Shown one piece after another: positions 14,437 through 60,880 of a stretch of DNA of 64,000 nucleotides (the stretch's first letter is position 1; every line of letters begins with the position of its first letter). The translations under genes and the position numbers were made by a program. Under the pieces are notes generated by a model, which was not told where the DNA came from, did not search any database, and saw nothing but the letters and a program-made list of their open reading frames with translations. The stretch covers positions 23,616,367 to 23,680,366 of the forward strand of contig CM056580.1 of NCBI GenBank assembly GCA_029721435.1, in the 5' to 3' direction. Source of the stretch: Gymnothorax reevesii. Lineage: Eukaryota > Chordata > Actinopteri > Anguilliformes > Muraenidae.

Positions 14437-26037
<11,601 letters not shown>

Positions 26038-39975: not shown

Positions 39976-40435
39976 TGTTATGGCCCCAATTTATGGCATT
40001 GCCGACAGCAAGGGATGACAGATTAAATTTCAAAACTTAAACAGATTTAATAACACAAAGACTGACAACTAACCTACAATGTATACTACTGACCAAGATT
40101 GATATTTACAAGAAAAAAAATATTTACAGTCCCTTGAGATGGGGCTGCTTGGTGATGTCCAGGGACAGCAAAATGCTCCAACACAGGCAAAAATCCACAA
40201 AAAAGCTTCACTGGTGTTGAAAAGAGTGACAGGTCTGGTCAAATGTATCCTTCTCCATGCAATTTCTCCTACTACTTTACTCTCTCAGTTTCTCTCCTTA
40301 TATTATTCTCTCCTCTCACCTTTTAGACTTTTTTCAATTCTCTGGGACTTTCCCCTCTCAGACATGCCCAAACCTAGCTCCAGACTGGGCTTTACAAAAA
40401 AAAAAAAGTCAAAGTCAATGCGTTTTCCACATTCC
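39976..40435 (-). mobile_element. Solo LTR related to the Gmr1-like element at 50 kb
   Basis: 460 bp that aligns along its length, in reverse orientation, with the 488-bp LTRs at 50077 and 55624. Examples are TGTTATGGCCCCAATTT at the LTR 3' end, AGCAAGGGATGACA, and GGCTGCTTGGTGATGTCC. It is clearly diverged from them. TG...CA termini are kept, and CATG is duplicated on both sides (39972-39975 and 40436-40439). No internal region remains, so it is the product of LTR-LTR recombination. Confidence 0.85.
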
Positions 40436-49900: not shown

Positions 49901-52900
49901 TCAGTCTTCTTCCCACTCGGACGCCATCTGCAGAACCCTGCGAATAACAAAGCCTGACTGTAAGATCTGCGGAACCTTACAGAGAACAGAACATCATGGC
50001 AAGATAGATGAAACCATAAAGAGACAAGAGTCTCACTGTAACCTTTTGCGGAACCTTAAAGAGACCACAATACAATTGTAATGTGAATATAGGCCACTGG
50101 ATTACCTTTTTTTTTATTCAGCTCAGACTGGAGCTATGTTTAGACATGTCCTGGACATGTCTGGGGCAAGTCCCCTAAAATTAAAAAAAGGAGGTCTGGA
50201 TGTGGGTGGGGTCTGCAAAACAGTGTATAGGGAAGAGAGTTGGGACAGTGAGGTGGTAGGAGAAATTGCAAGAAGATGACCAGACCTGCCATTCTGTTCA
50301 AGACCTGTGACGTTTCTTTTGTGGATTTCTTTGCCTGTGTTTGAGCATTTTCTTCATCCAGGACATCACCAAGCCACCCCACCAAAAAGGGACTGTAATT
50401 ATTTCAGTTTTTTCTTATTTATCAATCTTGGTCTTTAGTTGTAGGTTGTTATTAGTCTTTGTCTTTGTTAAAAATTAAATGTGTTTTAGTTGTTAAAGCT
50501 GTGTTTGTCATCCCTTGCTGTTGCTGTTGTGTTATAAATGTAATAACAAATTGGGGCCATAACAAATTGGGGGCTCAAGGTCCGGGATAGACCATTGTGT
50601 GAGTAATTTATTGAAAATCTAACATTCCAAATTGTGAAATTGTTTTTGTGAATTTTCCTAGATATATATTGACAACAGCAATGGATGATTTCTTGGCATC
50701 ACCAACCGTAGGGGTTTTGAAGTCTTTTAAAAAGACAGAACTGCTAGAAATTTGCAGACAGTTGGAGCTGACAGAGGTAAAACCAGCCATGCGAAAAGCA
50801 AGACTGGCTAGAGAGATAGTTGAATATTACATTGATGAAAATGTGTTTGCACCAGGAGATCTGGAACAGTTTCCAGTGGAAAATCCAAATATAGAAATGG
50901 AACTTAAATTAAAAATGCTAGAGATTGAAAGGGAGGAAAGAGAAAAAGAAAGGGAGGAAAAAGAGAAAGAAAGGGAAGAAAGAGAAAAAGAAAGGGAGGA
51001 AAAAGAGAAACAAAGAGAATTTGAGAGGGAAGAAAAAGAAAAACAAAGGCAGTTTGAGTTAGAAAAATTAGCAAGAGAAGAAAAACAAAGAGAATTTGAG
51101 AGAGAGAAAGAGGAAAGAGCAGAAAGAGAGAGACAGAGACAGAGAGATTTTGAATTAGAGAAATTCGATAGAGAAGAAAGACTCCAAATGGAGCAACTAA
51201 AAATTAAAATAGCAATGAAAAATAAATTTTGTGCTAGTCAGGAGGTAAAACTGGTGCCTCCATTTTCAGAAAAGGATGTTGACAACTATTTCCAGTGTTT
51301 TGAAAAGGTAGCAAAGAGTTGCCAGTGGCCAAAGGAACACTGGCCTCTGATGTTGCAAACTGTCCTCAAGGGTAAAGCTCAACAAGCCTATTCGGCTTTG
51401 TCTGCAGATGATTCCTCTGATTATGAGGTTGTCAAAAAGGTTATTTTGAGAGCTTATGAGTTGGTTCCAGAGGCTTACCGACAGAAATTCAGAGGTCTGA
51501 AGAAATCTGAAAATCAGACTTATGTTGAATTTGCTAATGAGAAGCAGGTTTGCTTTGAGCGCTGGTGTACTTCTATGGAGGTCAAGGATGATTTCAACTC
51601 ACTAAAAGAGATGGTGTTAGTTGAAGAATTCAAGAACTGTGTTAAGGATGATGTTAAGACCTACCTTAATGAGAAGCAAGCACTGAATTTGCAATCAGCT
51701 GCCAAATTTGCAGATGAATATGTTCTCACACATAAGTCCAAATTTCAGTCTAGCAGTAACCATAGATGGTCCCTATTTCAGAAAGAAGGTTACGGTGATA
51801 CCAAAGATTCCTCACCCAAAGACAAAGACAAATCTGGTGATGGTGCTCAGAAATCCAGTAACAGGTCTGATCAAAGTGTGAAAGCTGACAGTGAGAAAAG
51901 TGGTCTAGTTTGCAGTTATTGCAAGAAATCTGGTCATGTTACAACTAAGTGTTGGTTCCTTAAAGCTAAGAAAGAAAAAGAGAAGGATACCAAACCAAAT
52001 GCCTTTGTGAAAACAAGGTTAGAAACCCCTGTAGTAGATTACCGATCTGAGCCTGATACAGCTGACTTCTTGAGGGAGGAATTTCTTCCATTTGTGTCAG
52101 AGGGATTTGTGGCTCTGTATGAGCATACTACTCCTGTCCCCATATATATCTTAAAGGGATACCGGAGCTTCTCAGTCACTTTTGTTGATGGACTCCTTGG
52201 AGTTACGTGATGAGACCGCTTCAGGGGATTTCATACTTGTACAAGGTATTGAAGGGAGGACTGTATCTGTACCCCTGCACTCTATATTCTTGAAGTCAGA
52301 TTTAGTTACAGGACAGGTAAAGGCGGGACTTATGACAAGTCTACCTATAAAGGGTGTTTCTCTGTTGCTAGGCAATGACCTGGCTGGGGGCAAAGTAATT
52401 TCCCCTGTACATCTTACTTCACAGCCGAGCACTGAAGATGGGGATGAGGACCCATCTCTGTATCCTTCTTGCGCAGTGACTCGTGCTATGGCCAAGAAGG
52501 CTAAAGAAGAAGATGTTGTGGTGCAGTCCAGCACATTGAATAGTCAGGACTCAGGTGGTTCGCCTCATGACTTTGATTGGCCTACTATGGTTTCTCCGTT
52601 TGAGAACTTAGCAGACACTTTTATCAGTTCATTGTTCAGCCAGCCAGATGGGTTTGGTGATTCTGATGTGTCTGGAGACTTGTCTCTGTCCAGAAAGCGG
52701 TCGATTGAGGAACAAACTAATGATCCTGAAATTTGTGCACTAAGGAGGAGAGCCCTTCCTGATAAAGAAATAGACGCAGTTCCAGTAGGGTATTATCTCA
52801 GGGCGGTGTGTTGATGCGGAAGTGGCGCCCTCCTGATATCCCTGCCAATGCAGATTGGGCAGTGGTCAGGCAAATTGTTGTTCCGAAGGTCTATAGGAAT

Positions 52901-55900
52901 GAGATCTTAACAATGGCTCATAGTTTTCCTTTAGGAGGTCATCTTGGTGTTAACAAGACTGTTGATAAGATCATGAAACACTTCTTTTGGCCTGGGCTTC
53001 GGAAAGACGTTTCCAACTTTTGCAAAACCTGTCACACTTGTCAGGTAGTTGGAAAACACCAGTTAGACCCACCTGTAGCTCCATTGCAGCCTATCCCAGC
53101 ATTTAGGGAGCCGTTCACTAAGGTCGTTGTTGATTGTGTTGGTCCATTACCCAAGACTAGATCTGGAAATCAGTACTTGTTGACAATCATGTGTGCATCT
53201 ACCAGATTCCCTGAAGCCATACCTCTACGTAACATCAAGGCAACTGCAATCTCGAAGGCTTTGATAAAGTTCTTCACGTCGTTTGGCCTTCCCAGGGAAA
53301 TTCAGTCAGACCAAGGTAGCAATTTCACTTCAGGATTGTTTCAGCAGGTTGTGTATGAACTAGGTGCAAAACAGATTCTTTCTAGTGCCTATCATCCAGA
53401 AAGTCAGGGTGCCTTAGAGCGGTTTCATTCCACTCTCAAGACAATGATGAGGACTTATTGTTATGACCATGAGAAAGACTGGGATGAAGGGGTTCATTTG
53501 CTGTTGTTTGCAGCTAGAGAAGCAGTGCAGGAGTCTACTGGATTCAGTCCATTTGAGCTAGTGTTTGGTCATGAAGTGAGAGGACCTTTGCTATTATTGA
53601 GTGAACAATGGCAAGAGGAAGAGCCGCAAATCAGTCTGTTAGACTATGTTAGCAAGTTCAAGGAAAGATTGCGTGCAGCTTGTGACCTTGCCAAAGAGAA
53701 CTTGAAATCAAGTCAGGGAAAAATGAAAACTTGGTATGATCATAAGGCTAGAAGCCGTGAGTTTAAACCAGGAGACAAGGTCCTTGTGTTGTTTCCCTTG
53801 CAGTCCAATCCATTGCAGGCTAGATTTCATGGTCCTTATGAAATTCTGACAAAACTCAATGATCTCAATTACATTGTGAAGACTCCAGATAGGAGAAAAC
53901 CAAAACAATTGTGTCATATTAACATGCTAAAGCCTTATCATGACAGAAATGCTAGGGTTGCAGCTGTCACTTCAGATTCTCCAATGGTCGAAACGTGTGA
54001 AGATGAGGGGGAGTTTCAAGATGATGAACCAAGAATTAAAGCTGAAGTTCTTTCATGTAAATTGTCAAACACTGAAGTGTTGCAAAATCTTGATGTAAAA
54101 CTCCAGCACTTAGAACCCTCACAGAGAGATCAGTTTGAAAGGCTGATCAAGAAATATGAGGATTTGTTTCCTGATGTTCCAAAGAGAGTTACTATAGCCT
54201 CTCATGATGTAGATGTTGGTGATGCCAAACCAATAAAACAGCATCCATACCGGATGAATCCTGAAAAGAGAAAGATTGCTGAGAAAGAGGTTGAGTACAT
54301 GTTAAAACATGATATTATCAGACCCTCCAACTCCGATTGGAGTTCACCCTGTGTGCTAGTTCCAAAACCTGATGGAAGTACTAGATTCTGTACAGATTAT
54401 CGCAAAGTCAATGCTGTAACTAGAACTGATGTGTTTCCAATACCTAGGATTGATGATTGTATTGATAGTGTAGGGCAAGCAAAGTTTCTGACCAAGATTG
54501 ATTTATTGAAGGGTTATTGGTGTGTGCCTTTAACTGAGAGGGCCAAGAGCATCTCTGCTTTTGCCACACCATCTGGATTGTACCAGTATGAAGTCCTACC
54601 CTTTGGCATGAAAAATGCCCCAGCCACGTTCCAAAGGATGATACAGTCTACAATCGCCGGATTGCCACACACGGGTGCGTACATCGATGACCTGATCACA
54701 CGGAGTGACTCCTGGGAAGAACATCTAAAAGATGTGGAGACGTTGTTCCAGCGCCTGACCCAGGCTAACCTGACTGTTAACCTGAGCAAGAGTGACTTTG
54801 GTTGTGCTACTGTCACCTATCTTGGCTACGTCATAGGCCAGGGTAAGGTGGCACCCATAAATGCTAAAGTCCAAGCCATCATGGACTTTCCAGTTCCTGA
54901 CAACAAAAAAGCTTTGCGCCGCTTCCTTGGAATGATCGGGTACTACCGCAAGTTCTGCAAGAACTTTGCTGAGATTGCTCTCAGTCTAACTAACCAACTG
55001 AAGAAAGGTGAAAAGTTCACCTGGGATGATGCATGCCAGGGAGCCTTCGATCGCCTGAAGTCTCTGCTGTGTCACTTCCCCGTGCTCAAATCTCCTGACT
55101 TCAACAAACCGTTCTCCATCGCGGTCGATGCTAGCGACCAAGCTTGTGGATCTGTGCTCCTACAGAGAAGTGACTCTGATGACATTGAGCATCCCGTGGC
55201 ATACTTCTCCAGGAAGTTCAATCGCCACCAAAGGAACTATTCCACAATAGAGAAGGAACTGTTGGCTCTGGTCCTTTCTTTACAACACTTTGAGGTTTAT
55301 GTTTGTACAGGACAAAAGCCAATGATTGTGTACACTGACCACAATCCGTTAATGTTTTTGAGTAAGATGAAAAACAAGAATCGGAGATTGTTGAATTGGA
55401 GTTTGATTTTACAGGAGTTTGACTTGGAAATTAAGCATGTGAAGGGTACAGACAATGTAATTGCTGATTGCTTATCCCGTGTTTGAATATGTATATATAT
55501 GTCATGTGTTTATTTGAATATTGTATGATATGTATATATAGACAAGTGTTCACTTAACCATTTTGTATTGAAAAGAAAAAATTTGCCTTTATGAGTCAAA
55601 ATTTTTCCCTTTTGGAATGGAGGTGTAATGTGAATATAGGCCACTGGATTACCTTTTTTTTTATTCAGCTCAGACTGGAGCTATGTTTAGACATGTCCTG
55701 GACATGTCTGGGGCAAGTCCCCTAAAATTAAAAAAAGGAGGTCTGGATGTGGGTGGGGTCTGCAAAACAGTGTATAGGGAAGAGAGTTGGGACAGTGAGG
55801 TGGTAGGAGAAATTGCAAGAAGATGACCAGACCTGCCATTCTGTTCAAGACCTGTGACGTTTCTTTTGTGGATTTCTTTGCCTGTGTTTGAGCATTTTCT

Positions 55901-58900
55901 TCATCCAGGACATCACCAAGCCACCCCACCAAAAAGGGACTGTAATTATTTCAGTTTTTTCTTATTTATCAATCTTGGTCTTTAGTTGTAGGTTGTTATT
56001 AGTCTTTGTCTTTGTTAAAAATTAAATGTGTTTTAGTTGTTAAAGCTGTGTTTGTCATCCCTTGCTGTTGCTGTTGTGTTATAAATGTAATAACAAATTG
56101 GGGCCATAACACAATGTCTGCAGAACCCTGGAGTGAACAGAACCACACTTTAATGTCTGCAAAACCCTGTAGAGACCAAAACCTCTCCATAATGTACAGA
56201 TATAGCAGCACTGCTATAATGAACAGCCTCATTCCCTCTCCAGTATATTCAGCCTCCTGTGAGTCAGGATCATTCCCTCATTAGTCCTCACCACTTGCCT
56301 GGGCCAGAATCTCCAAGCATATAAACCGATACCGAGCCAAACTAATCACAACACAACCTTTATTGAAATCCAAGTCAGTATGTAAATTCTGTCCATGTTA
56401 ACATTAAATGAATGTGACATTTTATACAATAAATAAGACAGGAACTCAATTTTCAGATAATGAATAATCTGGTCAGCAATTTACATCAAATTCAAGCATC
56501 GAATTTAATTCCAAAATCATAACCAAATACAAACCAAATCCAAGTCTGATCTGAGATTAGCCTCTCAGGTTCAAAGTGAGTTCTCCTGACATCAGTTTGT
56601 TTGAAAATGGCAGTAAATGTGACGGTCCCATTACACAACTTTAACGTATGGGTACAAAACAGAACAGGGGCCTATAGGGTGGTCAGAACACGTAACATCA
56701 TTTTTCTGTTCTGGAACACAGTGTTATATTATCATCCCATATACAAAAGTAGGTGTCATCAAGAGAGCATTAAAGCCAAGTGAATAGGTTCTATTTCAGT
56801 TCCCACACTGTACTCACTGGAATGAAAAAGCCAAGGGCATTTTTACCCTTTCATCTTTTCTCTCCTAACCACTACCCTCTCATCTCCTTGCACTTCTATT
56901 CCAAGGCATATGAACTGGTCAAAACCACACTGAGGGAGGCTGTCAACTCATGATACTGTCATTGCACAGGATAAAGACCATGATCCCCCCTCTCTGAACC
57001 AACATCCAAACTGGGAGTCACTGCCACACAAATTCATTTCAAACTACCAGTTCATCTCCCCTATTAATTAGGCTACTCATTAATCAGTTAAGACTTTACC
57101 TATGATGTCCAGCTGAGACCAAAAGTTCAACATGTGTACAAAAACGAGTTAAAAACCGGTCATCTGGCTGACCCGCGCTCCACGGCCAAAACTGACAACT
57201 TAAAAGAGGCTTGCAGCATCCAAATAACTACACAGTACCTGAATTTAGTAATTAAGCTGAAGTCTGTCCCTAATTTCTAAATTCTAGGGACTAACCTTGG
57301 GTCTGTTGTGCGTTGCAGGCAGCAGGTGGTTCCAGAAGGGGGCACCCTTGGCGTCCGTGCTGCGGCCAGGAGCAGGAGCCAGCAGGGCGAGGCGGCTCCT
57401 TTTAGAGGTGGAAGGGCCCTCATCTTCGGAGCAGGACTCCCCAGTGTCGCTGGGGGACAGGAGCCGTTTTTTGGCCGGGCAGAAGGGAGCGGGGAACCCC
57501 GCAGGACCAGGACAAAGGCCCGTGGGGCCGGTGGGGGTTTTCTCTGAGGAGGGCAGGCCGTTGCTAGAAGTGGCTGGTACAGCGGTTTGCTCTGGCGGGG
57601 AAGACTCCAGACTGTACATCCAAGTCCTCGCCTCTTCGGGCCCCAGAGGCACCATGGGTGGGGACCCAAGAGGATGGTAGATGGACAATTCGGCTGGCCC
57701 CTCTAGGTCTGAGCCCCCATTGGAGCCATCCACCTTTCCGCCCTGTCCAGGGGAGAGGCCCTGACCCCCGCTTACTGATGATGTCTCAGGCTTGGGCAAC
57801 GCAGCCAGGGCTGTGGGATCCTGGGGCGAGGGGGAACGGGGATCCTCCGGGGGGAGGGATCGAGGGGACAGTGGGGATTGGGGATCACACAGGAGAGAGT
57901 AATTGGGCGACAGGGGGGCCTGAGGATCCACCAGGGGATGGTAGTATTTTGGAGAAAGTGAATACTCAGGGTCAGGCTGGTTCTTTGGAGAGAGGGGGTC
58001 AGGATGGTACTTTGGAGAAACTGGAGAGTGAGGGTCAAGCAGAGGTTGGTACTTAGGAGAGAGGGACTGGGACCTGGGTGACATTGGAACCTGTGGGTCG
58101 GAGAGCGGCAGGTATTTGGGGGAGAGTGCTGGGGGGGAATCAGATTGGACCAGGTATTTTGGGGAGTGAGTGGGATGGGGGTCAGAGAGTGACTGGTATT
58201 TTGGGGAGTGGGTTGGATGAGGGTCGGAGAGGGACTGGTATTTCGGGGAGTGAGTAGGATGGGGATCGGACAGGGACTGGTATTTTGGGGAGTGGGTAGG
58301 GTGAGGGTCCACGAGGGGCTGATATTTAAGGGTGGGCGCAGGATGAACGTCGGAAAGGGGCTGGTATCTGGGGGATAGTGCCGGATGGGGATCGGATATG
58401 GGCTGGTATTTTGGGGACAGAGGAGCCTGTCCATCAGGTAAGGGACGGTAGTGGTTGTGCAGTGCAGGTCGTCTCCCGGGCAGGGAGGTCCTTGCGGATT
58501 GTGGACTGGGGGTGTGGGGGGGTGTACGCTCTCTGTGCTCCATCCCGCTCGTCCCTGCTGAGGAAAATGGTGGCCCAGGACCACAAAGCACCTCGCTATC
58601 CATGTCATCACCTGGCCCTGCCAGGTGGGGGCGCTTGTGAGTTAGCGGTTGCTCGTCTGGGGCCCGCTTAACTCCTGATCTGAGGACCCTGTGACCTTCG
58701 TGGGGGTCGACAACCCCTCTATGTTGAGAGAAGATGGACAGCTGGTAGACCTTCTGCAGCTTGATCTCCTCCTCTCCAAACGGACGAGCAGGTCCTCCCT
58801 CCAGTTCTGCAGTCTCCCCCGCACCTGGTCCAGGTTCTCCACCAGGAAGGGCCCCCTCCTGGGCTGGGAGCTCAGTAGGGGACTCCTTACACAGATGTGT

Positions 58901-58924
58901 GATTTCCATCTGGATGTGCCTCAT
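46901..58924 (-). CDS. atosb: Atos homolog protein B (FAM214B)
   Basis: Nuclear regulatory protein related to Drosophila Atossa; its biochemical role is poorly defined. Coding exons: 57296-58924, 49879-49937, 49530-49629, 49114-49272, 48047-48115, 47547-47746, 46901-47054. This gives 789 residues; human has about 538. The extra length is mainly a Pro/Ser/Tyr repeat block (residues about 167-368). The N-terminus [12 protein letters not shown] and the motif KVYQLSIFS match the family. The conserved Atos domain begins at [15 protein letters not shown] and includes [14 protein letters not shown]. Then come [16 protein letters not shown] and the C-terminal domain [30 protein letters not shown]. 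Exon phases are all consistent. Intron 1 (49938-57295) hosts a 6-kb retrotransposon. ATOSA is the alternative, but the short N-terminus excludes it. Confidence 0.95.
48125..48430. repeat. 30-bp minisatellite in an atosb intron
   Basis: About ten degenerate copies of a unit like CACATAAACTCACACATAAA, period 30 (or a half-period variant). It continues into CA-rich microsatellite sequence up to about 49105. It lies in the intron 48116-49113, very close to the exon at 48047-48115. The long Cys-rich ORFs over it are repeat artefacts. Confidence 0.85.
48660..49105. repeat. CA/CG-alternating simple repeats
   Basis: Two blocks of ACAC/ACGC alternating purine-pyrimidine DNA (about 48660-48745 and 48968-49105), ending only nine bases before the atosb exon 49114-49272. 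Such tracts can adopt Z-DNA; any effect on splicing is inference. Confidence 0.8.
49927..50060. repeat. ~39-bp degenerate tandem repeat overlapping an atosb exon edge
   Basis: Copies of TCTGC(A/G)GAACC(C/T)T begin at 49927, 49966 and 50045, with a weak copy near 50006. They resume after the retrotransposon at 56117 and 56156. The 49927 copy spans the splice acceptor of the exon 49879-49937. The LTR element inserted into this array. Confidence 0.6.
50077..50564 (+). repeat. 5' LTR of the Gmr1-like element
   Basis: 488 bp starting TGTAATGTGAATATAGGCC and ending GGGGCCATAACA. By eye it shows no difference from the 3' LTR, and the antisense 81-codon frames in both are the same. Confidence 0.95.
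50568..50587 (+). other. Primer binding site, proline-tRNA-like
   Basis: TGGGGGCTCAAGGTCCGGGA begins three bases after the LTR. The first nine bases equal the common tRNA-Pro primer site of many retroelements; three bases (AAG) then interrupt the match before GTCCGGGA resumes. It could be a variant tRNA-Pro site or use another tRNA. Confidence 0.55.
50681..52210 (+). CDS. Gag polyprotein of the Gmr1-like element
   Basis: Structural protein for particle assembly; 509 residues from the first ATG (50681). Order: N-terminal region, a highly charged Glu/Lys/Arg coiled coil (about 50905-51190), a capsid segment (about 51260-51740), then one CCHC zinc knuckle ([14 protein letters not shown], about 51910-51951). 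The capsid segment (around [10 protein letters not shown] and [15 protein letters not shown]) resembles the SCAN domain. The frame is open throughout, but the protease lies in another frame starting at 52155. Confidence 0.9.
   Translation: MDDFLASPTVGVLKSFKKTELLEICRQLELTEVKPAMRKARLAREIVEYYIDENVFAPGDLEQFPVENPNIEMELKLKMLEIEREEREKEREEKEKEREEREKEREEKEKQREFEREEKEKQRQFELEKLAREEKQREFEREKEERAERERQRQRDFELEKFDREERLQMEQLKIKIAMKNKFCASQEVKLVPPFSEKDVDNYFQCFEKVAKSCQWPKEHWPLMLQTVLKGKAQQAYSALSADDSSDYEVVKKVILRAYELVPEAYRQKFRGLKKSENQTYVEFANEKQVCFERWCTSMEVKDDFNSLKEMVLVEEFKNCVKDDVKTYLNEKQALNLQSAAKFADEYVLTHKSKFQSSSNHRWSLFQKEGYGDTKDSSPKDKDKSGDGAQKSSNRSDQSVKADSEKSGLVCSYCKKSGHVTTKCWFLKAKKEKEKDTKPNAFVKTRLETPVVDYRSEPDTADFLREEFLPFVSEGFVALYEHTTPVPIYILKGYRSFSVTFVDGLLGVT
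52155..52814 (+). CDS. Aspartic protease region of the Gmr1-like element
   Basis: Open from 52155 in a frame displaced by one base from gag. The retropepsin active-site motif DTGAS sits at its very start (52158-52172), overlapping the last codons of the gag frame, so it has no start codon of its own. It ends at a TGA at 52812-52814, just where the integrase frame opens. Whether the displacement is programmed or an indel in this copy cannot be told here. Confidence 0.8.
   Translation, partial: RDTGASQSLLLMDSLELRDETASGDFILVQGIEGRTVSVPLHSIFLKSDLVTGQVKAGLMTSLPIKGVSLLLGNDLAGGKVISPVHLTSQPSTEDGDEDPSLYPSCAVTRAMAKKAKEEDVVVQSSTLNSQDSGGSPHDFDWPTMVSPFENLADTFISSLFSQPDGFGDSDVSGDLSLSRKRSIEEQTNDPEICALRRRALPDKEIDAVPVGYYLRAVC
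52808..55486 (+). CDS. Pol: integrase - reverse transcriptase - RNase H
   Basis: About 890 codons, intact. Integrase comes first: HHCC zinc motif ([10 protein letters not shown]...CKTCHTC, about 52918-53043), then a D,D,E core with Asp in VVDCVGPL, Asp in QSDQGSN and Glu in [13 protein letters not shown]-type module (FHGPYEI, about 53827) follows. Reverse transcriptase is next (about 54250-54900), with [10 protein letters not shown] and the catalytic YIDD (about 54680). RNase H closes the ORF, with Asp in VDASDQ, Glu in IEKELLAL, Asp in YTDHNP, ending ADCLSRV. The stop lies 137 bases before the 3' LTR, leaving no room for a downstream integrase. Confidence 0.95.
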   Translation: MLMRKWRPPDIPANADWAVVRQIVVPKVYRNEILTMAHSFPLGGHLGVNKTVDKIMKHFFWPGLRKDVSNFCKTCHTCQVVGKHQLDPPVAPLQPIPAFREPFTKVVVDCVGPLPKTRSGNQYLLTIMCASTRFPEAIPLRNIKATAISKALIKFFTSFGLPREIQSDQGSNFTSGLFQQVVYELGAKQILSSAYHPESQGALERFHSTLKTMMRTYCYDHEKDWDEGVHLLLFAAREAVQESTGFSPFELVFGHEVRGPLLLLSEQWQEEEPQISLLDYVSKFKERLRAACDLAKENLKSSQGKMKTWYDHKARSREFKPGDKVLVLFPLQSNPLQARFHGPYEILTKLNDLNYIVKTPDRRKPKQLCHINMLKPYHDRNARVAAVTSDSPMVETCEDEGEFQDDEPRIKAEVLSCKLSNTEVLQNLDVKLQHLEPSQRDQFERLIKKYEDLFPDVPKRVTIASHDVDVGDAKPIKQHPYRMNPEKRKIAEKEVEYMLKHDIIRPSNSDWSSPCVLVPKPDGSTRFCTDYRKVNAVTRTDVFPIPRIDDCIDSVGQAKFLTKIDLLKGYWCVPLTERAKSISAFATPSGLYQYEVLPFGMKNAPATFQRMIQSTIAGLPHTGAYIDDLITRSDSWEEHLKDVETLFQRLTQANLTVNLSKSDFGCATVTYLGYVIGQGKVAPINAKVQAIMDFPVPDNKKALRRFLGMIGYYRKFCKNFAEIALSLTNQLKKGEKFTWDDACQGAFDRLKSLLCHFPVLKSPDFNKPFSIAVDASDQACGSVLLQRSDSDDIEHPVAYFSRKFNRHQRNYSTIEKELLALVLSLQHFEVYVCTGQKPMIVYTDHNPLMFLSKMKNKNRRLLNWSLILQEFDLEIKHVKGTDNVIADCLSRV
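55614..55623 (+). other. Polypurine tract
   Basis: Purine run GGAATGGAGG ends directly at the first base of the 3' LTR, the expected site for plus-strand DNA priming. Confidence 0.75.
55624..56111 (+). repeat. 3' LTR of the Gmr1-like element
   Basis: 488 bp, apparently identical to the 5' LTR, followed by the duplicated CAAT. Confidence 0.95.
56116..57295. other. atosb: Remainder of atosb intron 1
   Basis: Begins with two more copies of the ~39-bp tandem repeat (56117, 56156). The rest has no exon or repeat family that I can recognise. The donor for the first coding exon (AAG|GTTAGT) is at 57295/57294. Confidence 0.6.
57821..58426 (-). repeat. atosb: In-frame SPKY-type coding repeat in atosb
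   Basis: About 200 residues made of 13-15-residue units. The clearest are four nearly identical copies of [14 protein letters not shown] (about 58155-58325), with increasingly diverged units on both sides. The DNA unit is 42 bp and stays in frame. Ser-Pro and Lys-Tyr recur in nearly every unit. Confidence 0.9.
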
Positions 58925-59972: not shown

Positions 59973-60880
59973 GTCTGATTTGGTTTATTTTAGGCTATTT
60001 TGTGCATTTATGGTGCCCCCTACTGGTCAATTTGATTGAAACTTTCAGGCTATGTTTCAGGTTCTTATGTGGACATGTCCTGTGAGTTTTGTAATGATTG
60101 AAAAAACTATTTATGATTTATAGTCTGATTTGTGTTATACCATGTTGCTTTGTTTTGCATTTATAGCGCCCCCTATCAAACAATTTGAATGAAATTTTTG
60201 GGGCATGTTTCAAGTACTTATGTGAATATATTCTGTGAGTTCTATGGCTATAGGAAAAACAACTGCTGATTTATAGTCTGATTTGTGTTATACCATGCTG
60301 CTTTGTTTTGCATTTATAGCGCCCCCTATCAAACAATTTGAATGAAATTTTCAGGCCTGTTTCAAGTACTTATGTGAATAAATTCTGTGAGTTCTATGGC
60401 TGTAGGAAAAACAATTGCTGATTTATAGTCTGATTTGTGTTATACCACGCTGCTTTGTTTTGCATTTATACCGCCCCCATCAGTCAATTTGAATGAAATT
60501 TTCTGGACGTGTTTCAGGTAGTTATATGAATATATCCCGTGAGTTTTATGGCTATAGGACAAATAATTGCTGATTCATAATCTGGTTTGTGTTATACCAC
60601 GCTGCTTTGTTGAGCATTTATAGCGCCCCATCAGTCAATTTGAATAAAATTTTCTGGGTATGTTTCAGGTCCTTATATGAATATAACCTGTGAGTTTTAT
60701 GGCTATTGGACAAATAATTGCTGATTTATAGTGTGATTTGTGTCATGCTACGCCCATTTTTCGCATTTATAGTGCCCCCATAAGCCGATTTGCATGAAAC
60801 TGTCAAGGTATGTTCCCGGTACTTAAATGGACATATTCTGTAAGTTCTGTGATGATTGGCCCTATGGTTGTTGAATTTTG
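59973..60880. repeat. Six-copy ~152-bp tandem array
   Basis: Units start at 59973, 60123, 60276, 60428, 60580 and 60731 (periods 150-153). Each opens with GTCTGATTTG-like sequence and carries GCATTTATAGCGCCCCCTAT, CAATTTGAATGAAATTTT and TGTGAGTTTTATGGCTATAGG. The inner copies are most alike, the outer ones most diverged, typical of a tandem array. Upstream of atosb. Confidence 0.88.

Follow-up and report, generated by a model that had tools for sequence, protein, structure and literature searches.

The order in which integrase precedes reverse transcriptase (RT) in Gmr1-type retrotransposons has reportedly been in print since 2001–2002, the founding papers being, by repute, Butler et al. 2001 and Goodwin and Poulter 2002. 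Passages of PMC6238403, PMC8220671 and PMC3587641 place integrase upstream of RT in the Gmr1 clade, and a passage of PMC2774666 likens the Gmr1 order to that of Ty1/copia. In its excerpted text, PMC3587641 calls the crustacean cases the first in protostomes, and an annelid family appears in that of PMC8220671. SCAN is described in part of PMC3424704 as derived from the Gag of a Gmr1-like element, and in part of PMC4131045 as present in over half of the frog Gmr elements. Pufferfish Gmr1–Gmr4 have, according to a portion of PMC11117352, consensus lengths of 6058–6465 bp, long terminal repeats (LTRs) of 337–518 bp and one fused gag-pol open reading frame (ORF) of 1506–1634 aa. Here, we describe an LTR retrotransposon of the Ty3/gypsy type that spans positions 50077–56111 (~6.0 kb) of a 64,000 nt stretch of the Gymnothorax reevesii genome (GCA_029721435.1, contig CM056580.1, positions 23,616,367 to 23,680,366, forward strand), hereafter the window.

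This element is, with little doubt, a recently inserted, high-copy Gmr1-type Ty3/gypsy LTR retrotransposon with the order Gag(SCAN)-protease (PR)-integrase (INT)-RT-RNase H that presumably works like other LTR retrotransposons. What could be observed directly were the anatomy, the domain order, the complementarity to tRNA-Pro, the 4 bp duplication, the motifs and the sister copies with long open frames. The features are as follows.

50073–50076: left target site duplication, CAAT (5 bp, ACAAT, if the LTR is one base shorter)
50077–50564, + strand: 5' LTR, 488 bp, TG...CA, the same as the 3' LTR at 488/488 bases
50568–50588, + strand: primer binding site, two 9 nt halves complementary to tRNA-Pro with AAG between them
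50681–52210, + strand: gag, from the first ATG to the stop (frame open from 50615)
about 51467–51739, + strand: SCAN match in gag (PF02023, 1.7e-11)
51761–53280: apparent mosaic tract, ~1.5 kb, closest to L043, a divergent sublineage of the same family, and ending inside the integrase core
51911–51952, + strand: CCHC knuckle in gag
52155–52814, + strand: protease part and linker to integrase, in a separate frame (DTGA at 52158)
52808–55486, + strand: integrase-RT-RNase H ORF, 892 aa (frame open from 52766)
52880–53935, + strand: integrase, with zinc finger, core and C-terminal GPY module (Pfam, converted from residues 25–376)
54359–54835, + strand: reverse transcriptase (RVT_1), with YIDD at 54680 (Pfam, converted from residues)
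55097–55420, + strand: RNase H (PF17917, converted from residues)
55610–55623, + strand: polypurine tract region, TTTTGGAATGGAGG, adjoining the 3' LTR
55624–56111, + strand: 3' LTR
56112–56115: right target site duplication, CAAT

The Pfam models matched the 892 aa ORF in the order PF17921 (integrase zinc finger, 3e-21), PF00665 (integrase core, 3.4e-12), PF22938 (integrase C-terminal module, 4.4e-12), PF00078 (RT, 2.1e-30) and PF17917 (6.5e-35). The motifs, which we take to be those named HHCC, D,D(35)E, GPY and YIDD, follow the same order, with HHCC inside 52919–53041, the D,D,E residues at ORF positions 109, 168 and 204 (35 residues between the second D and the E), GPY at 53831 and YIDD at 54680. 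Hence, the claim of an earlier sequence-only reading that integrase motifs precede RT and RNase H is borne out. None of the Ty1/copia-type Pfam models matched at E 0.01, the matches being to Ty3/gypsy-type models instead, and among named solved relatives yeast Ty3 was the nearest for both halves (5.9e-90 for RT and 3.1e-34 for integrase). There is no second integrase downstream of RNase H, a finding that had been named as one that would overturn the reading, since INT matches the window once and the 3' LTR follows the stop codon after 137 bp. The ORF does end upstream of the polypurine tract, as had been proposed, though with a gap of ~120 bp not 'just before' it.

Protein searches used ORF residues 1–390 and 440–892 as queries and returned 3061 and 4189 matches, respectively. 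The best 120 listed for each query amount to 215 different proteins, and the counts of domain order cover these best matches only. By BLAST, 174 of the 215 include both INT and RT and INT is first in all 174, and in a profile search both domains were found in 176 of 216 rows (window included), again with integrase first in every one (176/176); a further 26 rows had INT only and 14 RT only. When yeast Ty3 was used as a comparison query, 118 of the 120 proteins listed had both domains, all 118 with RT first, and two had RT only. The closest named matches among those listed are from Takifugu and Pristis. Within the same genome (2.17 Gb), 20 sister copies were sampled as every fourth row among 86 scored matches, and integrase precedes RT in all 20. 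An assembly junction between the two halves, which would also have undone the earlier reading, is thus excluded as the cause of the order. Though this order had been described as one of deuterostome retrotransposons, that scope is too narrow: it is also found in proteins named for Pinctada and Paramuricea, where contamination is possible, and passages of PMC3587641 and PMC8220671 report it from crustaceans and an annelid. The excerpted text of a coral genome paper (PMC12314368) calls an integrase-then-RT element Copia yet cites a paper on Gmr1-like Ty3/gypsy elements, and the name Copia may here stand for a Gmr1-type element. A search of viral contigs with the RT piece gave 18 pattern matches, none of which was confirmed.

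Separate trees were built for RT-RNase H and for integrase. Complete domains were found in 68 of the 176 integrase-first rows and 107 of the 118 RT-first rows (108 and 11 dropped), and these were thinned to 31 and 34, the named rows P0010, P0031, P0149, P0251, P0266 and P0305 falling out during filtering or thinning. The RT-first rows came from the yeast query and are mostly unnamed, those with names being from yeasts and flowering plants. In each tree a single branch, with 100/100 support and recovered in 100 % of 200 bootstrap trees, sets all integrase-first rows apart from the RT-first ones. Both trees pair the window with P0001 (97/80 for RT-RNase H, 98/57 for integrase) and place it in a group made up of the same seven rows, and in both the rows closest to it by path are P0001, P0013, P0017, P0012 and P0018. 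The separate-tree check proposed with the sequence-only reading hence came out in its favour as far as it goes, both domains grouping with integrase-first elements and no deep split between RT and integrase being seen, in trees from which a named Gmr1 is absent. Taken together, the domain models, the two trees and the 20/20 sister copies support the assignment to the Gmr1 type within Ty3/gypsy that had been made from the sequence.

A number of points weigh against this assignment or the reading as a whole. The sister copies are not a random sample, since the list of 86 from which they come was ordered by similarity to the RT of this element, and one of the 18 sampled copies with two complete LTRs, L013, is without a flanking duplication. 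The primer site is interrupted by AAG between its 9 nt halves. The lower support value (57) for the pairing with P0001 in the integrase tree must also be counted, and the trees conflict in that P0013 (Pristis) joins the window and P0001 in the RT-RNase H tree (96/86) and P0017 and P0018 do so in the integrase tree (100/92), placements that bear starred support. Six RT-first rows sit on long branches in the integrase tree, and the trees hold neither a named Gmr1 reference nor a named animal RT-first clade.

That the element is a recent chimera, with the RT of one Ty3/gypsy clade and the integrase of another clade or of Ty1/copia, would agree with an order that resembles Ty1/copia and with the different placement of P0013 by the two trees. 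However, forcing the swapped arrangement in each tree led to rejection in neither (approximately unbiased test, p 0.187 and 0.223), so the conflict is not significant and there is no good sign of separate clade origins for RT and integrase. In both trees the integrase-first rows stay together at 100/100 and the seven-row group of the window is the same, only Ty3/gypsy-type models match, and the order is found in proteins named for several phyla; we consider a chimera very unlikely. It is less credible still, to the point of being negligible, that the order is an artefact of assembly or annotation or a rearrangement of this single copy. Such an origin could draw on the two frame changes within 0.7 kb, but the order recurs in all 20 sampled copies and other proteins hold it in single frames of 1500–1600 aa.

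The 4 bp flanking duplication was found in 17 of the 18 sampled sister copies that have two complete LTRs (in two others, the 5' LTR of L026 is truncated and L010 gave a single LTR match), and the 4 bp reading is therefore better than the 5 bp one. The 16 bases preceding the 3' LTR are identical in all 19 of the 20 sampled copies read there. In the 18 copies, the two LTRs have no mismatch in seven and at most 6 in about 500 bp, and the copy described here is a recent insertion of a very abundant element. It sits inside a short array of a ~39 bp repeat, with repeats on both sides (49927–50034 and 56113–56195). The motif ATAACAAATTGGGG is repeated across the junction of the LTR end with the primer site (50540–50580). 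A relative of the LTR, 70.6 % identical over 435 aligned positions, is present at 40005–40404 on the − strand with no internal match nearby, and is probably the lone LTR of a related family. A recent duplication was considered for the ATAACAAATTGGGG repeat and rejected, as the LTR at 40005–40404 ends in the same AAATTGGGGCCATAACA; this end of the LTR therefore looks old.

The copy had also been called structurally complete. That is correct for the LTRs and signals, with 488/488 LTR identity and CAAT on both sides, and incorrect for the coding region, where the open spans (gag 50615–52210, protease part 52155–52814, integrase-RT 52766–55486) shift frame at each overlap. In the relative P0001, gag through RNase H lie within one 1558 aa frame, to part of which the protease/linker span is homologous. 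The single gag-pol ORF is thus missing from this copy, and 45 of the 86 scored genome copies have an open frame of 1520–1641 aa. Either genuine damage or sequencing errors lie behind the two frame changes.

The region between gag and integrase is unusual in a further respect. Of 21 copies compared, the window diverges most in gagC and likewise in PR plus linker, and of 20 compared it does so in the first half of integrase, yet for the second half of integrase its rank is 18 of 20. Differences found only in the window, relative to the 20 sister copies, fall within 51761–53280 in 39 of 44 cases, and between 51200 and 53400 the window has 39 private sites and the other 20 copies 3 to 17 each. Of the 39 tract differences, 28 alter the protein and 11 are silent, and they are spread over the codon positions as 15, 11 and 13, which is as expected for a stretch that would be without coding constraint. 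When the genome was searched with 52160–53400, L043 came up as a 99 % match, and 28 of the 39 differences recur in it. Each of the 17 further copies fetched from this search has between 7 and 15 of them, and 10 are seen in the window but in none of the 38 fetched copies. In 250 bp steps from 51565 to 53314 the window is 98.0–100 % identical to L043, and the medians for the 20 main copies are 92.4–99.2 % (at step 52815 both values are 99.2 %). From 53565 to 55314 the identity to L043 is 94.4–98.4 % and the main-copy medians are 98.4–100 %, and in the step from 55315 L043 is level again (99.6 vs 99.1 %). Hence, the copy appears to be a mosaic in which this tract resembles a divergent sublineage most closely. 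Either template switching between packaged RNAs or gene conversion at a later stage would account for the tract, and the data do not tell the two apart.

The same search had suggested an internally deleted, non-autonomous subfamily, as 35 of the 40 listed matches to 52160–53400 stopped at query positions 1093–1100 (~53252). This was rejected because 12 of 14 such copies that were fetched reach the far end of the internal region, L041 with a gap of ~630 bp on the way; the remaining two break off at 53473 (L032) and 54799 (L042). The search tool probably skips very common words, which would account for the early stop.

Two other explanations bear on these features. Some LTR elements separate gag and pol by a frameshift, and one of the two changes lies just before the protease, so that programmed frameshift sites rather than damage could be envisaged. 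However, the frame state at the first change is common to none of the 38 fetched copies and that at the second to two of them, L043 having neither, which makes programmed sites unlikely. As 45 of the 86 copies have one long open frame and the pufferfish Gmr elements, according to a portion of PMC11117352, a single fused gag-pol ORF, we regard this explanation as highly improbable. For the divergent 51.8–53.3 kb stretch, faster drift of gag-PR-integrase in one old lineage without recombination has somewhat more in its favour, since the 20 sister copies, too, vary somewhat more in gag and PR than in RT and 10 of the 39 differences are private to the window. It is nonetheless improbable: the contrast between the two halves of integrase, and the sharing of 28 differences with a copy, L043, that then falls below the main-copy medians over 53565 to 55314, both speak against it. 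With damage or sequencing errors and a mosaic thus preferred, the proposal that this copy is a good reference for the group is not sustained, because it has two frame changes and a sequence that seems mosaic within the family. Perfect LTRs and a young appearance do not keep a copy from being a broken mosaic, and a family reference should therefore not rest on this one.

The primer site is the detail in which the family departs from expectation. The pattern TTCAAATCCCGGAC, 0–8 bases, GAGCCC for tRNA-Pro has seven occurrences in the genome, all without an extra base, so none of the seven is a tRNA-Pro-type 3' end carrying the insert. Three of these places were fetched, and two are tRNA-Pro genes by ARAGORN with an Rfam tRNA match; the third was not called a tRNA gene. 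This third place, L049, holds a copy of the tRNA-Pro 3' end with CCA-like letters directly after it, and may represent a tRNA end that was retro-copied. Once CCA is added to the tRNA-Pro 3' end, its complement starts TGGGGGCTCGTCCGGGAT, and the tRNA-Pro genes of the same genome match both 9 nt halves of the site in the window. The primer-site pattern itself occurs 6318 times (3209 and 3109 per strand; reversed control 0), a figure that counts primer sites not intact elements and may take in related subfamilies. AAG, which tRNA-Pro does not encode, is inserted in 4385 of the 6318. Among the first 100 listed, 76 have AAG, 22 are exact and 2 have AA, and in the 35 readable copies (the window and 34 of the 38) there are 19 with AAG, 10 exact, 5 with AA and 1 other. 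Six of the seven sampled copies without LTR mismatch have AAG and L009 has the exact form. The form tracks the 100 bp downstream, where the nearest neighbour has the same form in 23.3 of 35 (mean after shuffling 13.3, a value this high in 0 of 2000 shuffles), an agreement to which the relatedness of copies may add, and there is no clear link with the 250 bp upstream (16.6 of 35, 335 of 2000 shuffles).

In a retrovirus-like cycle the primer site is recopied from the tRNA, and an insert should tend to be lost. The presence in 4385 of 6318 sites of an insert that tRNA-Pro does not encode therefore suggests inheritance from the RNA over recopying, or copying of only the first 8–9 tRNA bases. It is a tentative proposal, falling slightly short of an even chance, that the primer site of this family is not rewritten from the tRNA in each cycle, through either plus-strand recycling or very short tRNA copying. 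Biased repair, or a different primer, could also lie behind the AAG form. According to part of a review (PMC5371799), the primer site is not recopied from the tRNA in Ty1 and Ty3. Our literature search on primer-site inheritance in animals found no paper and only this Ty3 review, which does not show absence from print. If true, the proposal extends the primer-site behaviour of yeast Ty1/Ty3 to an animal integrase-first element, and the natural mix of forms makes it directly testable. This mix is the one unusual feature and is worth specialist attention. With thousands of primer sites in one 2.17 Gb genome, the family is a good place to study replication with an integrase-first pol, and suited to asking whether the primer site is inherited or recopied.

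For an element working like other LTR retrotransposons, Gag would package the element RNA, tRNA-Pro, complementary to the site, would prime minus-strand synthesis and plus-strand synthesis would start from the purine tract. The DD35E integrase would then insert the product with 4 bp staggered cuts. The broken-frame copy presumably moved using the proteins of other copies, unless its frame changes are later damage or sequencing errors, and may have gained its 1.5 kb divergent tract from a decayed relative by template switching or later gene conversion.

Elsewhere in the window, exons of an M1/ERAP-type aminopeptidase are found at 18181–18594 and 25501–26037 on the − strand (PF11838, 5.7e-14; PF17900, 1.5e-14). 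A 546 aa ORF at 57284–58924, also on the − strand, lies over a minisatellite with a 42 bp unit and has no Pfam match at E 0.01, and a tandem array with a 152 bp unit (5.6 copies) occupies 60003–60846. Rfam and ARAGORN scans of the window gave no match.

Among the known systems, the Gmr1 clade (Gmr1 of Atlantic cod), as portrayed in the source passages, shares with this element the Ty3/gypsy-type domains and integrase upstream of RT. A SCAN-related Gag, reported for frog Gmr elements in the excerpted text, is also present here (PF02023, 1.7e-11). The copy differs in its two frame changes and apparent mosaic tract, the named Gmr1 being compared by description only. Pufferfish Gmr1–Gmr4, in the part of the source available, are similar in size (here 6.0 kb, with 488 bp LTRs and 1520–1641 aa frames in 45 of 86 copies), with published copy numbers in the tens as against thousands of primer sites here. 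Yeast Ty3 is the nearest named solved relative for RT and integrase and, according to the portion of PMC5371799 cited above, its primer site is apparently not recopied. However, Ty3 has RT before integrase, a tRNA-iMet primer and the second half of its primer site in U3, whereas this element has integrase before RT, tRNA-Pro and two adjacent primer-site halves. Ty1/copia elements also have integrase before RT, but the RT and integrase here are of Ty3/gypsy-type families. Hence, the order is one already established for the Gmr1 clade, and this copy is mostly ordinary save for the detail of its primer site.

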